A stretch of DNA of 40,675 nucleotides from Synechococcus sp. TMED19 (GTDB lineage Bacteria; Cyanobacteriota; Cyanobacteriia; PCC-6307; Cyanobiaceae), in NCBI GenBank assembly GCA_002168155.1, contig NHBY01000010.1, forward strand, positions 73,854 through 114,528, given 5' to 3'. The position numbers were made by a program, and so were the translations under genes. How positions within the stretch are numbered: position 1 is the stretch's first letter; each line of letters opens with the position of its first letter. The notes beneath the pieces were generated by a model, which saw only the letters and a program-made list of their open reading frames with translations, did not search any database and had not been told where the DNA came from. Shown piece after piece: positions 5,193-29,488 of the stretch.

Positions 5193-6161
5193 TTGTCAGC
5201 AGAAGACGAAACAAAGAGAGTCAGCCTCGAGTTGCGGAAGGACACGATTCAGCGTCTTGATGAGCTGCGGAAGCAATGGTCCCTGCGAAGCCGGGGCCAG
5301 GCGATCCAGAGGATGCTGGATACGGTCCTTAGCGACCTCGAGCAGGACCCTGAGGATGACGAGGAGACCCTGAGAGATACGGCGGAAGAGCATCTGGAAG
5401 GTGCCATCGTTCTGGTCTCCGGCGGGGAAGAAAGCGAAAAAGAAACAGACTGCGCCTCTGAGGGGGCACCCCGTGGACTGGGGATTGACCTTCCTGGCTT
5501 TGTTTCTAAAAGAACCACTCAGCTACGAAAGAGCCTTCAAGAACCGCGGTTAAGCGAGGCGCAAGCCGGCGGTGAGCGCTTCTCAGTGATGGATGAGGAC
5601 CATCTCGCTCAGGCGGTCCGGGCCGTCCAGCAACATTGGATGACCCTCTACGGAAGTGAGCCCAACTCTGCAGTTCTTGAAGCCGCCGTGTACTGGCTGA
5701 GCCATGAGATCTGGCCAGGCGCCGACGCAGCCGAGGGAAAGCCATTCACATGGAATGCTTTGCAGCAAGTGATGCTGGGTTACGCACCCGGATGGGAAAT
5801 CAGAGAGGCCAGTGTTGACCGTGTCGTGGTTGCTGCAGGAGTGTTAGAAGATCCATTCAGTGCCGCAGAGCTCCCAGGACGGGTGCCTTCATTGGTTGGC
5901 CGGATGGTCCAACGCTTGAGAAGACGACGACGAGGTTCTCCATTCCTCGACCTGCAGAGCACGATGAGCACCCAGGGATCACTGAAGATGCTTGGACTTC
6001 CAACAGCCGCTGGCCACAAGCTCACACTTGCGGAAATCAGAGAGGCCTATCGGCAGAAGGCCCTAGCCAATCACCCGGATGCTGGCGGAAACGCAGAAGA
6101 AATGCGCCGCCTCAATGAGGCATACCAGCTACTGAAACAGCGTTTCGTGCGTCGCGACTGA
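5193..6161 (+). CDS. Protein with RHH/CopG-like N-terminus and C-terminal J-domain
   Basis: N-term TKRVSLELRKDTIQRLDELRKQWSLRSRGQAIQRMLDTVL resembles a ribbon-helix-helix; C-term LTLAEIREAYRQKALANHPDAGGNAEEMRRLNEAYQLLKQR has the HPD motif of J-domains. TTG start. Confidence 0.82.
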   Translation: MSAEDETKRVSLELRKDTIQRLDELRKQWSLRSRGQAIQRMLDTVLSDLEQDPEDDEETLRDTAEEHLEGAIVLVSGGEESEKETDCASEGAPRGLGIDLPGFVSKRTTQLRKSLQEPRLSEAQAGGERFSVMDEDHLAQAVRAVQQHWMTLYGSEPNSAVLEAAVYWLSHEIWPGADAAEGKPFTWNALQQVMLGYAPGWEIREASVDRVVVAAGVLEDPFSAAELPGRVPSLVGRMVQRLRRRRRGSPFLDLQSTMSTQGSLKMLGLPTAAGHKLTLAEIREAYRQKALANHPDAGGNAEEMRRLNEAYQLLKQRFVRRD

Positions 6162-6390
6162 GGCACAATCTGAGTCCTGGCAGTAGACCAAGACAAGATG
6201 CCTGAGCCTGGAGTCAAGCGGAGGTCGGCTCACGCCCCAAGCGACCGTATTGAATCAAGCCGATGGAACGCAGGCGAATCAATCGGCTTCAATTCAGCAA
6301 GGCAGCTCTAATGACAACAACAGATGGTCGAAATCTGGGGACTGCTGTGATTGACCAGGACAGGAACAGGTGTCGCAGCACATAAACCTT

Positions 6391-6438
6391 CTTGGCAAAG
6401 AGCGATGCAGCGAGCACTGCAATGCGCGGTTAGCCAAG
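6391..6438. repeat. Interrupted inverted repeat (nested stem-loop)
   Basis: CTTGGC...GCG.TGCAG-cgagca-CTGCA..CGC...GCCAAG. Confidence 0.7.
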
Positions 6439-7011
6439 AACGCCTATGCACATCAAGCATCTCATTCAGGACGCAACCCTAGTCCCATGAAGATCCAATA
6501 CAAAGACACACAATAACTGCAACAATCTCCCGCCTCGGAAATCACTCCATTGCATGCTGCCAAATTTGAGCCCTGAGCGATCCACGGCTCAACCAGGGCG
6601 CACTGCAACTGCTCCAACATCTGACCGGAAAAGGAACCTGGACAGAAGCTGATCACACGCAAGAGAGGTCCCCAATGAGCGGAATGCAGGCCGCCAAACA
6701 TGGTTAATGGTGACAGGGGAAATAAATCGCGGAGCGAGCAACGACGAACAACCAGCCAAACCACATGCAGCTGGCCCACATGAGACTTACAAATAGCCCG
6801 AAGGCAGGTCTATCCTGAGACGCTTGCGAATAGTTTGATGGTGTCCTTTTTGGCGCAGAGGCAAAAGGGCAGGATGATCCCGCAAGAGGCGAGTAGAGAG
6901 TCTGTCCTGTCTCAGAAAAGACTGCTTATGCGTCTCGCAGAAAGTCCTAAGCCGGACAATCGGGAGTCAGCGCATGGCTGAATAATCGATAAAAACGTGA
7001 TTCTTGTTTGA

Positions 7012-7054
7012 CGGGTTGGGCACTATTCGGCGGTGTGCCCGGCCAAAAAACCCG
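7012..7054. repeat. Interrupted inverted repeat
   Basis: CGGGTTGGGCAC ... GTGCCC-ggccaaaa-AACCCG. Confidence 0.65.
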
Positions 7055-7181
7055 AAATCAAGAATTCCAGATTGTGAGCACAAAATTGGTCCAGAGCGGA
7101 TGTCCAGGGCAATTGGACAACACCACGGACGCCGCCCAAGTCCCTTGCTACAGTGGACATTTACCTAGTTCATTCAAGTAC

Positions 7182-7208
7182 GCGTACCTGTGTTTGACAC
7201 AGGTACGC
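7182..7208. repeat. Perfect inverted repeat, 12-bp arms with 3-nt spacer
   Basis: GCGTACCTGTGT-TTG-ACACAGGTACGC read directly. Confidence 0.95.
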
Positions 7209-7293
7209 AGGCCCTATGCCCCATCGCCCAACCCCTTCAGCAAGGAGCAAAGGCGTAACCGACAAAAGAGCGGAGGCAAGTCCAATGCAACCC

Positions 7294-7319
7294 GCCTGGG
7301 ACTCATCTCGAGTCCAGGC
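7294..7319. repeat. Inverted repeat, 10-bp stem with one bulge
   Basis: GCCTGGGACTC-ATCTC-GAGTCCAGGC read directly. Confidence 0.9.
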
Positions 7320-7621
7320 AAGAGATACAGCTAAGACCAAGGCGTCCCAATTCATACAGGCAAGACACGCAACAGCGCGATCGATTGGCAGTCGAGCCAG
7401 AGTCTTCACTCAGCAAAGCAAATGCGTTCAGGAAGCCTCAGGCGGGGAAGCTCTGGCGATTACGGCAAATCAGTGCAGCAGACGACCCATAAACAACTTT
7501 CTTGGAATGGACTCACCATGGGTCTAAAAAGTAGACCAGGTCGCAACAGTCGAGGAGAGGAAACGTACGTCCTCGTCATTCACCAATAAGAAGGGGAAGG
7601 CCAGAGGGCGGAAAACAAGGA

Positions 7622-7652
7622 ATTAAAAAGCCCCACCGTCTCAGGTGGGGCT
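7622..7652 (-). terminator. Rho-independent terminator of apcD
   Basis: On the minus strand AGCCCCACC-TGAGAC-GGTGGGGCT followed by TTTTAATT, downstream of the apcD stop; a second weaker hairpin lies at 7654-7677. Confidence 0.88.
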
Positions 7653-7696
7653 AAAGCCTGGACTTAAGCCAGGTCTTATGCGAGAGAGATGGACAA

Positions 7697-8191
7697 TCAA
7701 GTACTTGTCTGCATCCCTTGGATCAAATAGTCGAAGTAAGGACTCGCAACTCGTATGTCTTCAGGAGAAAGCAATGCCACCGATGCATCTTTGAGGCAAC
7801 GCATGGCCTCCACCATTCCCGGCATTGGTACGCCGAGGCTGTTGTACATCTCTCTGGCGCCGACTAGGCCAGTGTTCTCAATGAATCGTGTGCTGCCTGC
7901 AAGGACCCCGTAGGTCACGAGACGTAAATACCAGCTGTAATCACGCAGACATTGAGCACGCTGTTTCTGTCCGTAAGCATTGCCGCCAGGAGCGACATAT
8001 TCTGGCTTGCGGCCGAATAGCTGCTTTGCAGACTCATCAACGATTTTGCGTTCGTTGTCCGTCAGGACACGGGCCACACGGATGCGACCACTGCCATCGC
8101 TGAGATATGCCTCCATGGACTGCAGCTCCCCACTGGATGGGTAGCGCAGCTCATCGTCAGCTTGGAGGATCAGATCGCGTACAACGCTCAC
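7697..8191 (-). CDS. apcD: Allophycocyanin alpha-B subunit
   Basis: [90 protein letters not shown] match ApcD more closely than ApcA; bilin Cys in CLRD; GTG start. Confidence 0.92.
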
Positions 8192-18008: not shown

Positions 18009-19174
18009 AGTTGCACAGTGTTCCATGGCCTCTGGCACTAGTCATTTTGTTGCTCTCCAGTTGCGCGCAACTTCAGCCACCCAAAGAGGAAGCTCGTCCA
18101 TTCCGATTTGAAAAACTGGATCTGACCCGGTCCGATGAGAATGGCCAACCTCTCTGGCGTCTGGTAAGTCCCCTAACCCGATATCAGCTTGAAGAACGAC
18201 GCTCTTCATTAAGTGATCCGGTGGCCACGATCTACAAAGAGGGCAAACCCCAGTACACGGTCACAGCATCGAAAGGCTTAGTGATTGATGACGGTGAACA
18301 TGTGGAACTTTTCGGTGGTGTCACCTTCCGAGTGCTGGATGAACGCCAGATTGTTGTACGAGCTGACCGTGTCTTCTGGCAACGTGAGTACGACATCATC
18401 AAATTTGAGGGCAATCCAACCCTGTTAGATCTGACACGGCGCGTTGTAGCCGGAGAAGCCAGATTTCACACTGACACCGACATGTTGTTTGCCTGGGAGG
18501 GGATCAACCTCAAAAGCTGGCAGGGCAACCGAGATGAATCACAACCTGCTTCGCTGGAACTGAATACTCAGCATCTGAACTGGAACACATCTGATGGGAA
18601 GCTCAATATTGACTCCCCGATCAAAGGTATTCAAAGGCCCACAGCTGACCGTTTGCGTCGTCTCTCATCTCCTTCAATGTCAGGAAATACACGACAGGAG
18701 TGGTACGACTTCAATGCTCCGGTACTCATCAGTGAGGAAGCAGAGTCCCTCAACATTCGTGCAGGCCGTTCTCGTTGGTGGGCAGCAGAACAGAGAATTA
18801 CATCCAGCGAGCCAGCGGAAGGAACAGTCAAGGAACTCAATGTCACAGGCAGTGAACTGGAAATCCTCCAGAAGGAGTCCCTGCTGCGAATTGGCCAAGA
18901 CTGCCGCTTAGTGCAACCCGATCAGGAGCTAACTGCAGAGTTGTGCAGCTGGAATTGGGGCAGTGGAGAGGTACTTGCTGAGGGAGGGGTGATCTTGCGG
19001 CGTGATGAATTGCAGCAGGTGACACGCTCCAGCCGGCTCGAAGGCGTGACAGGGGAAGACGGACGCATCACGTTTTCAGCTCCGGGGCAGAGGGTAAAGA
19101 CCCGCCTTCAGATTCAGGAGGAACAAGCGGTCCCTGGAAAACCACCTCAGGCAGTAACTCCAGTTGAGTTCTGA
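18005..19174 (+). CDS. LptC-like LPS export periplasmic protein
   Basis: Lipoprotein-like N-terminus (LALVILLLSSCAQ), then repetitive OstA/LptC-like beta pattern (LFGGVTFRVLDERQIVVRADRVFW); TTG start overlapping the metG stop. Confidence 0.75.
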   Translation: MKLHSVPWPLALVILLLSSCAQLQPPKEEARPFRFEKLDLTRSDENGQPLWRLVSPLTRYQLEERRSSLSDPVATIYKEGKPQYTVTASKGLVIDDGEHVELFGGVTFRVLDERQIVVRADRVFWQREYDIIKFEGNPTLLDLTRRVVAGEARFHTDTDMLFAWEGINLKSWQGNRDESQPASLELNTQHLNWNTSDGKLNIDSPIKGIQRPTADRLRRLSSPSMSGNTRQEWYDFNAPVLISEEAESLNIRAGRSRWWAAEQRITSSEPAEGTVKELNVTGSELEILQKESLLRIGQDCRLVQPDQELTAELCSWNWGSGEVLAEGGVILRRDELQQVTRSSRLEGVTGEDGRITFSAPGQRVKTRLQIQEEQAVPGKPPQAVTPVEF

Positions 19175-19811
19175 GTTTGCGAGCCCAACCCTCGATCCAG
19201 ACCTCATCACTGCGGCTAAAGCAGCGTGGCGACCAGCCACCGATGATCAGTACCCCCCTTCCGCCAAGGGGTTCCACGACTACGGCTGGTGTGTTCGGGG
19301 GCAAATAGCTGAATTCATCGCGCCCCGGGTACAGAGCCAGATTCACCAGCGAAATGGTCTGCTGCTTGTCCTTCGCCCGTTTCACGATCGGTCCTTCGCC
19401 GTAACCCCCGCTGGCCAGCACACCTCGCTTGAGCAAAACCCGTTGGTCCCAAACCAAAAGCATTGTTGAAGCAGGCGTTGCTGTTAAGAGCAGCGTGCTG
19501 CCCCACCCCATTTCCTGCTTTATGGAGTTGGGCATTGAAGCCACCAACAGCATTCCCTGAAAGCCGTCCAGTTCAACCTTCTCAGGGTCTTTTGGGTTGG
19601 CCTGGGTCCAGAGAATGGATACGAGGAGAAGAGCAACGGCCATGGCACCACTGAGCACGGAGGCTCTCTCAAACGCTGGTGGAACCGCACCAGTGGCCGG
19701 ATGAAACGTGGCCGCATTGATCACAGTCAGAACCAATCCAGTCAGCCCGCCGATCAATACCATCAAGGCCGGAGTACGCATAGATGAATCTGGGCCTCCA
19801 CAGGCTGCCAT
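19068..19811 (-). CDS. CCB2/CCB4-like cytochrome b6f cofactor-assembly (complex C subunit B) protein
   Basis: MVLIGGLTGLVLTVINAATF, GFQGMLLVASMPNSIKQEMGWGSTLLLTATPASTMLLVW, ILATYYPG-independent soluble domain with PPNTPAVVVEPLGGRGVLIIGGWSPRCFSRSDEVWIEGWA. Confidence 0.75.
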   Translation of the reverse strand: MAACGGPDSSMRTPALMVLIGGLTGLVLTVINAATFHPATGAVPPAFERASVLSGAMAVALLLVSILWTQANPKDPEKVELDGFQGMLLVASMPNSIKQEMGWGSTLLLTATPASTMLLVWDQRVLLKRGVLASGGYGEGPIVKRAKDKQQTISLVNLALYPGRDEFSYLPPNTPAVVVEPLGGRGVLIIGGWSPRCFSRSDEVWIEGWARKLRTQLELLPEVVFQGPLVPPESEGGSLPSAPELKT

Positions 19812-27692: not shown

Positions 27693-28739
27693 TCAACCCA
27701 ACATCAGCTCTTGAAGTTGGACCTGAAACGTCGCGCCATCGGGTTGATCACCAATAAGGACCAGCTGTAACTGATCTGGTGAACCCCCGTCGTTCTCATA
27801 CCAACACTCAAGCCGCTGACCAACGGCCTGAACCTGAAGGGGCAGCGACTTCCCTGCGATCGGCACCCGTCCTTTCATGCGGATCAGGCCCATGGGTCTG
27901 ATCGTCTTGCGGATAAGGGATTCCAGCGGTTCACGTTCCCAACTGCCCTGAAGTTCAACGCAAGTGGCAAGCAAGTCGGGATGACTGTGGTCGTGGTGAT
28001 GGTGCTCACCATCGTCATCAGCTCCAACGGGAGCAGCTCGATCAAGTCCCAACACCAGGGCGGGATCAATAACCCCACGCTGTATCGACAGATGGGGAGG
28101 ATTGTTCTCGATCGGCAACTGCTCAAGCTGAGTCTGCAACTGGGCCCTGGCTTGCTCAAGTTCTGAGGCACTGAGGAGATCAGCGCGGCTGATTAGCACC
28201 AGGTCTGCGACTTCCAGTTGTTCAAGGAAAAGATCCTCGATGGCGTCCTCATGATCGAGGCTGGGGTCGTTTGCCCGTTGCTGTTCCAGTGCTTCGGCAT
28301 CAAAAACGACGCGCTGTTGGGCTAGCGCTTGTCCATCAACGACGGAGACGACACCACTGACACGAGTGCGATGTCGGATCTCGGGCCAGTTGAAGGCCTG
28401 CAATAGAGGTTCGGGCAGGGCCAATCCACTGGTTTCGATAACGATTCCATCGAGTTGATCAGCACGCTCAAGCACCGTCTGCATCGTTGGCAGAAAGTCG
28501 TCCTGCACAGTGCAGCAGAGGCAGCCATTTGCCAGTTCCACAACTGCTGTTTCTTCCTCACAGATGCCGCACGAACGCAACAGTGCTCCATCGATTCCCA
28601 CTTCGCCAAACTCGTTGACGAGCACCGCGAGGCGTCGACCCGAGTTCTGCAGAAGGTGACGGAGAAGAGTTGTCTTGCCTGACCCGAGGAAACCGGTGAT
28701 CACGGTGACCGGGAGGCGGGTAGATCCAGTTGCCTGCAT
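27693..28739 (-). CDS. CobW/COG0523 family GTP-binding metallochaperone-like protein
   Basis: PVTVITGFLGSGKTTLLRHLL, NEFGEVGIDGALL, ELANGCLCCTVQDDF (CxCC motif), His-rich GEHHHHDHSHPD. Confidence 0.92.
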   Translation of the reverse strand: MQATGSTRLPVTVITGFLGSGKTTLLRHLLQNSGRRLAVLVNEFGEVGIDGALLRSCGICEEETAVVELANGCLCCTVQDDFLPTMQTVLERADQLDGIVIETSGLALPEPLLQAFNWPEIRHRTRVSGVVSVVDGQALAQQRVVFDAEALEQQRANDPSLDHEDAIEDLFLEQLEVADLVLISRADLLSASELEQARAQLQTQLEQLPIENNPPHLSIQRGVIDPALVLGLDRAAPVGADDDGEHHHHDHSHPDLLATCVELQGSWEREPLESLIRKTIRPMGLIRMKGRVPIAGKSLPLQVQAVGQRLECWYENDGGSPDQLQLVLIGDQPDGATFQVQLQELMLG

Positions 28740-29317
28740 CAGGCGATCACCATCGACCAGGCAAAGGCTGCTCCAATTCCGATCCAGATCCCGGCGAGCA
28801 GACGACGTCCTGAATCACCAAGCCAGGACTGAAGAGGAACAGCGACTTGCCGCACCAGCAGCAACAGGGCGCCCTGCGCCAGGAACAATCCCAGGAAATA
28901 TCCAATGAGTGGCGTGGGTTCGGCACCGATGATTGCGCCTCCAAGGAGCCAACCATGCAGCGCAAATGCTGGAAAGAGCAGTGCTCGGGGCAGGGTGCCG
29001 AGAACGACCAGACCTTCGAGCACGAGCGTCAATGAAACCAGCGCTTCTGCCGATAGTTCAAAGGCCTCGGGGATTGGCACAACCAAGGCAGTTGCCGAAC
29101 CAAGCAGACCGATGGCGAGCAGTGCAGGGAGCCAGCGTCGCGGCTGTTGCCAACTCACAAGGCTGAGGGCAATCAGGAACAACAGATGGTCAGGTCCAAG
29201 AAGGGGATGACCGATTCCGCTTAGCAGTCCCTGAATCGGGGTCAATGCGCCATCACCCATTCCGAAGGGGTGATGAGCCAGGACGAAGGGGAGCAACCCC
29301 ACAACGGCGTTAATCAT
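28739..29317 (-). CDS. HupE/UreJ family protein, probable cobalt transporter
   Basis: HPFGMGDGALTPIQGLLSGIGHPLLGPDHLLFLIALSL HupE-like N-terminus plus several TM helices; lies under a B12 riboswitch. Start at MINAVVG (ORF opens 29350). Confidence 0.88.
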   Translation of the reverse strand: MINAVVGLLPFVLAHHPFGMGDGALTPIQGLLSGIGHPLLGPDHLLFLIALSLVSWQQPRRWLPALLAIGLLGSATALVVPIPEAFELSAEALVSLTLVLEGLVVLGTLPRALLFPAFALHGWLLGGAIIGAEPTPLIGYFLGLFLAQGALLLLVRQVAVPLQSWLGDSGRRLLAGIWIGIGAAFAWSMVIA

Positions 29318-29351
29318 GCAAATCCGGTCCTCGCCGGGAAGATGGGTCAAG

Positions 29352-29468
29352 CGGCGGGCGTTCTGACTTACCTCAAAGAAGAGGGTTCACAGCTGCGGGA
29401 CAGCGCCGGATTCAAACCGGACTTTCCCCGTTACCTCCTCGGGCTGACACCCCGAGGAACCGGATTTT
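29352..29468 (-). promoter_or_regulatory. Cobalamin (B12) riboswitch
   Basis: Minus strand: CGGGGAAAGTCCGGTTTGAATCCGGCGCTGTCCCGCAGCTGTGAA ... AAGTCAGAACGCCCGCC, the conserved cobalamin riboswitch core and 3' box, directly upstream of hupE. Confidence 0.93.
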
Positions 29469-29488
29469 GACCTTATCACCGCTAAAGA

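Follow-up and report, generated by a model that had tools for sequence, protein, structure and literature searches.

What, if anything, is held in the long stretch between two convergent genes, a dnaJ-like gene and apcD, in a 40,675-nt piece of Synechococcus sp. TMED19 DNA (referred to as the window, i.e., the whole stretch that was analysed)? The original prediction described this stretch as a 1.5-kb gap without a convincing gene, and left three options for its content, i.e., one or more structured non-coding RNAs, a cis-acting DNA locus, or the remnant of a decayed gene.

The dnaJ-like/apcD gap is devoid of genes and known RNAs

Ranking of the gaps in the window on the basis of a gene list curated by hand placed the 1,535 bp between the stops at 6161 and 7697 first, with a runner-up of 558 bp. 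The absence of a protein-like ORF was borne out, as the longest stop-to-stop frame of the gap spans 115 aa (a length that is reached by 66% of shuffles) and its six longest ORFs yielded nothing credible against Pfam. A gene remnant was ruled out by the Pfam result and by ORF lengths within the range of shuffles, and relatives were found to retain the gap but not its sequence, without any protein similarity that would point to decay. Likewise, a phage DNA comparison of the gap gave no match to known phage, and no promoter-like sites were seen within it.

An Rfam scan, which had been proposed as a check, returned zero families above the gathering score for the gap. A known RNA was ruled out as well, the only weak Rfam match being located over the apcD terminator (anti-hemB, RF02837; 22 bits and below cut-off, window positions 7622–7689 on the minus strand), where it is probably a chance match. 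The apcD terminator itself, predicted at 7622–7652, was recovered (Table 1). Elsewhere in the window, a Cobalamin riboswitch (Rfam RF00174, 51.6 bits) was observed at 29339–29479 on the minus strand, with a minus-strand gene that is HupE-like by eye (28739–29350) immediately downstream of it.

Table 1. Features in and around the dnaJ-like/apcD gap (window positions).
Feature	Position	Strand	Remarks
dnaJ-like (J-domain) gene	5193..6161	+	Pfam DnaJ; stop at 6161; kept neighbour of the repeat even without apcD
Gene-free spacer around the candidate site	6162..7696	.	Variable length, sequence not conserved
Candidate dif-type recombination site GCGTACCTG-TGTTTGACA-CAGGTACGC	7182..7208	.	12-bp perfect inverted repeat, conserved, single-copy
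Putative left recombinase-binding arm GCGTACCTG	7182..7190	.	Nearly invariant, 37 host sites
Variable core TGTTTGACA, with putative strand-exchange region	7191..7199	.	52 distinct host cores
Putative right recombinase-binding arm CAGGTACGC	7200..7208	.	Nearly invariant, 37 host sites
Intrinsic terminator of apcD, separate from the candidate site	7629..7652	-	Stem and T-run
apcD (allophycocyanin alpha-type), convergent neighbour	7697..8191	-	Pfam Phycobilisome; stop at 7697

A 27-bp inverted repeat is conserved within the gap

Five stem-loops had been listed in the gap, and of these the one at 7182–7208 proved exceptional and conserved, whereas the other four were not conserved in relatives. 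The original prediction had listed 7182–7208 among the others, without giving it prominence or a function. Its perfect 12-bp arms have a length that was attained in 0 of 60 shuffles, and its general pattern can be written as GCGTACCTG-N9-CAGGTACGC. An extended outer hairpin around the repeat was considered and dropped, the flanks being without clear covariation.

For comparison, 40 apcD neighbourhoods of the same family (Synechococcus, Cyanobium, Prochlorococcus) were examined. The dnaJ-like gene converges on apcD in 34 relatives, across gaps of 579–1,830 bp (median of 944 bp over 35 measured gaps, i.e., the 34 relatives and the window). Alignment of these intergenic regions, another of the proposed checks, showed that 37 of the 41 sequences contain the 27-bp element with no more than 3 mismatches, the remaining four being contig-end or broken-synteny cases. 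The rest of the gap is not conserved, barring two isolated short alignments. The option of a cis-acting DNA locus is thereby backed by the conserved repeat.

With up to 2 mismatches allowed, 82 of the 122 family genomes contained the 27-bp pattern, usually in one place each, while a reversed control pattern gave 8 places in 7 of these genomes; the extra weak places of the 27-bp pattern look like chance. The window's own genome contains one copy. An exact scan of genome contigs yielded at least 117 stretches, and among those listed 83 adjoin a dnaJ-like gene or apcD, the other 34 looking mostly like chance matches in unrelated bacteria. When the same sequence was searched in other cyanobacterial families, matches were at chance level only. 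Moreover, Prochlorococcus lineages that lack apcD still carry the repeat, a few hundred bases downstream of the dnaJ-like gene. The repeat is essentially single-copy per chromosome in marine and freshwater Synechococcus and in most Prochlorococcus.

Near-invariant arms around a variable core, as observed here, are expected of tyrosine-recombinase sites. The layout taken as typical of a dif-type site was a 6-bp central region between inverted arms of roughly 11 bp each; because the arms of the repeat are symmetric about the centre of the 27 bp, a spacer of 5 or 7 bp is implied, versus the usual 6. By eye, GCGTACCTG is unlike the E. coli dif arms (GGTGCGCATAA and TTATGTTAAAT, listed in PMC2410131).

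The repeat is located at the replication terminus

The position of the repeat, almost opposite dnaN, corresponds to the replication terminus or skew switch. In the 26 genomes that are complete or nearly so, the repeat was separated from dnaN by 0.30–0.50 of the chromosome (median of 0.478), i.e., by at least 0.43 in 23 genomes and by 0.30–0.36 in three. Moreover, the keto-skew change point, searched over 400 kb, was located at –2.7, +17.6, +6.7, and +18.3 kb with respect to the repeat in four genomes, a proximity reached by 0 of 500 block permutations. GC skew by itself was weak and less consistent.

A Xer-like recombinase accompanies the repeat

A PF00589 protein was found in 24/24 genomes tested, all of which encode a Xer-like tyrosine recombinase of ~390 aa with R-K-R-H-Y (G000:C41:29343–30512 in the window's genome) that is conserved across Synechococcus and Prochlorococcus; in several genomes, no other tyrosine recombinase was found. 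Residues R244, K271, R336, H359, and Y368 were invariant in 11 recombinase sequences, while the second-box His is replaced by Tyr333 (reference set R-K-H-R-H/W-Y). The protein matches Pfam PF00589 weakly, yet above cut-off, and the recombinase of the window's genome matches none of the NCBIfam XerC, XerD, XerA, XerS, and XerH equivalogs; for the L348 recombinase, weak NCBIfam XerA and XerS matches were obtained far below cut-off. A PDB sequence search with the recombinase gave no match. In a Foldseek comparison of its predicted structure (pLDDT 75, pTM 0.44) with solved ones, the top match was archaeal XerA (E 1.3e-5, with a low TM of 0.29), followed by Cre and an integron integrase. None of the 24 genomes, on the other hand, had an FtsK (PF01580) match that passed the cut-off (control genomes pass in 8 of 14 cases).

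Orthologues of the recombinase occur at about 50% identity in many other cyanobacteria, albeit not in all, and the recombinase gene is situated on another contig than the site or hundreds of kb away from it. Two genomes (G029 and G076) contain neither the orthologue nor the site, and five (G007, G013, G090, G117, and G139) contain the orthologue and no site at 2 mismatches. Loci of such family members are L595–L597 and L599 (genus g9) and L593 (G007), and in G013 no dnaJ-like gene was present within 4.5 kb of apcD. The link between recombinase and site is correlational, and we infer that the ~390-aa protein may be the partner of the repeat.

On the basis of these sequence comparisons, we propose that the repeat at 7182–7208 is probably (with a rough probability of 0.85) a dif-type site for chromosome-dimer resolution at the terminus, on which one Xer-like recombinase would act in the absence of FtsK. 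This tyrosine recombinase would bind both arms of the repeat and synapse two sites within a chromosome dimer or catenane, after which strand exchange inside the core would yield monomers before division. Recombination at the repeat is, as such, predicted to occur. Many cyanobacteria are polyploid, which makes the need for dimer resolution less clear.

The arms of the repeat recur in uncultured viral contigs

The exact pattern was also present in at least 120 IMG/VR uncultured viral stretches, compared with 6 for the reversed control. The viral loci L192–L311 carry one site each (e.g., L250:1022–1048 and L279:8992–9018). Among the 120 matches listed, 57 loci encode a terminase of 578 aa that is closest, among named relatives, to T7-like cyanopodoviruses; other site-bearing loci have a different terminase that is related to cyanosiphoviruses. 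This 578-aa terminase led to 79 further contigs, about 10 of which (mostly those nearest the query) carry the site, about 0.5–1.3 kb past the terminase gene. No credible site was observed in the 16 records of isolated cyanophages that were checked. Viral arms were asymmetric more often than expected, and the paired positions 6/22 and 10/18 were anti-correlated in the viral copies. The viral cores were very diverse as well (86 distinct cores), and phage integration into the host dif by core identity was rejected, core sharing being not clearly beyond chance.

These shared arms would fit a reading in which the repeat merely acts as an attachment site (attB) for phages or mobile elements, without host purpose. 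A mere parasite target would, however, not persist as one terminal copy per genome throughout the family, and even streamlined genomes that have only one tyrosine recombinase retain the repeat. Moreover, viral and host cores match little above chance (3 shared versus 0.82 expected), and the viral loci are devoid of homologues of dnaJ, apcD, and the host recombinase, which makes attB a very unlikely explanation. In a further reading, for which the odds appear about even, the repeat would be the first dif-type site described in cyanobacteria and its partner a lineage-specific single recombinase without FtsK, while an uncultured cyanophage group would have taken up the arms of the site with cores of its own, so that the host recombinase would resolve phage genome multimers or maintain the phage as a circle.

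Hairpin, fork-trap, and operator functions fit the repeat poorly

A perfect 12-bp hairpin between convergent genes could also be a structured RNA or a bidirectional terminator for both genes. However, T-runs are absent beside 7182–7208, apcD already has its own terminator, and the repeat tracks the terminus even where apcD is missing. Its arms are invariant rather than compensatory, and unpaired arm positions in viral copies are commoner than chance. With Rfam empty and nothing conserved beyond the 27-bp site, the structured RNA that was part of the original prediction did not hold up, and an RNA or terminator function of the repeat is barely plausible.

The terminus position and the conserved arms could in turn suggest a Ter-like replication fork trap, or a site for a MatP-like terminus-organising protein. 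Nevertheless, Ter sites are polar, non-palindromic, and present in several copies, and matS occurs in many copies, whereas the repeat is a single palindromic copy with a variable core, so that such a function would be hard to credit. Least probable of all, and close to negligible, is a transcription-factor operator, which would share the palindromic shape but is at odds with one copy per genome, placed between two gene 3′ ends in a gap without promoter-like sites.

High-light Prochlorococcus carries a related element

In high-light Prochlorococcus, an element that is related but has diverged (typically GTACTG-CCTTAAAGA-CAGTAC) is located about 370–440 nt past the dnaJ-like gene. Unlike in other lineages, its core hardly varies, and the element lies directly against the end of a convergent gene. 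Because of this invariant core and abutting gene end, the high-light assignment is held less firmly, and it is less certain that this element would be the same site. A match at 826,188 in MIT9312 was dropped, as it is not beside dnaJ and is conserved through the core like coding sequence. Around the high-light Prochlorococcus terminus site, several copies of an AT-rich dyad element (of the TAAGACTA...TAGTCTCATATAAGA type) were observed, i.e., at L382:18533–18579, 18706–18752, and 19226–19274 in Prochlorococcus MIT9312, with similar copies in L379 and L453.

In MED4, the candidate is located at 829,201–829,221, with an intact right half and a left arm that is partial only. This position falls within the published vesicle-DNA enrichment at 826–832 kb (PMC10913375), where a reanalysis of MED4 vesicle DNA reported strong enrichment from 826,000 to 832,000 with a top peak at the 'dif site' (PMC10913375). 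Since this 826–832 kb interval is centred on half of the MED4 genome (1,657,990), the interval may have been chosen without reference to a dif sequence.

Discussion

The archaeal XerA/dif system combines one recombinase, in the absence of an FtsK homologue, with one inverted-repeat site on each chromosome, within the termination region (Cortez et al. 2010, PMC2958812). Given that FtsK was not detected, the picocyanobacterial system would resemble archaeal XerA/dif, with its one recombinase and single inverted-repeat terminus site, more than E. coli XerCD/dif, and among solved folds, too, archaeal XerA comes closest to the picocyanobacterial recombinase as modelled. The archaeal dif site is 28 bp long (11-6-11) and has about half its bases in common with bacterial dif (PMC2958812), whereas the picocyanobacterial site is 27 bp long with arms that look unrelated; recombination was demonstrated in vitro for archaeal XerA/dif (PMC2958812) and is predicted for the picocyanobacterial repeat. 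With E. coli XerCD/dif, the repeat shares its single location at the terminus, the layout of two arms flanking a short centre, and a tyrosine recombinase, but it differs in arm sequence, in the lack of a detectable FtsK, and in having one universal recombinase that scores below every NCBIfam Xer equivalog cut-off. XerH/difH is a single-recombinase system acting on a terminus site. In XerS/difSL, too, one recombinase acts on the terminus site, but XerS depends on FtsK and its gene is located beside its site (PMC2958812), unlike the picocyanobacterial recombinase gene that lies far from the repeat.

An earlier genome-wide prediction assigned no dif site to the 5 cyanobacteria that it covered (Kono et al. 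2011, PMC3025954), and the lack of predicted cyanobacterial dif sites was still stated in 2019 (PMC6416890). According to the part of Smyshlyaev et al. 2021 (PMC8138268) used here, Xer is absent from some cyanobacteria, whose simple tyrosine recombinases include a separate 'Cyan' subgroup proposed as a stand-in for Xer. The picocyanobacterial recombinase may belong to this subgroup, for which that part of the paper describes no target site (PMC8138268). In the open-access literature that was searched, no report of the picocyanobacterial repeat was found.

The repeat is probably the long-missing chromosome-separation site of picocyanobacteria. Together, the candidate site and its recombinase make FtsK-less dimer resolution testable in the most abundant photosynthetic cells, and the repeat provides studies of replication and of vesicle DNA with a fixed marker of the terminus. 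The presence of the same arms in cyanophages, in turn, calls for an explanation.
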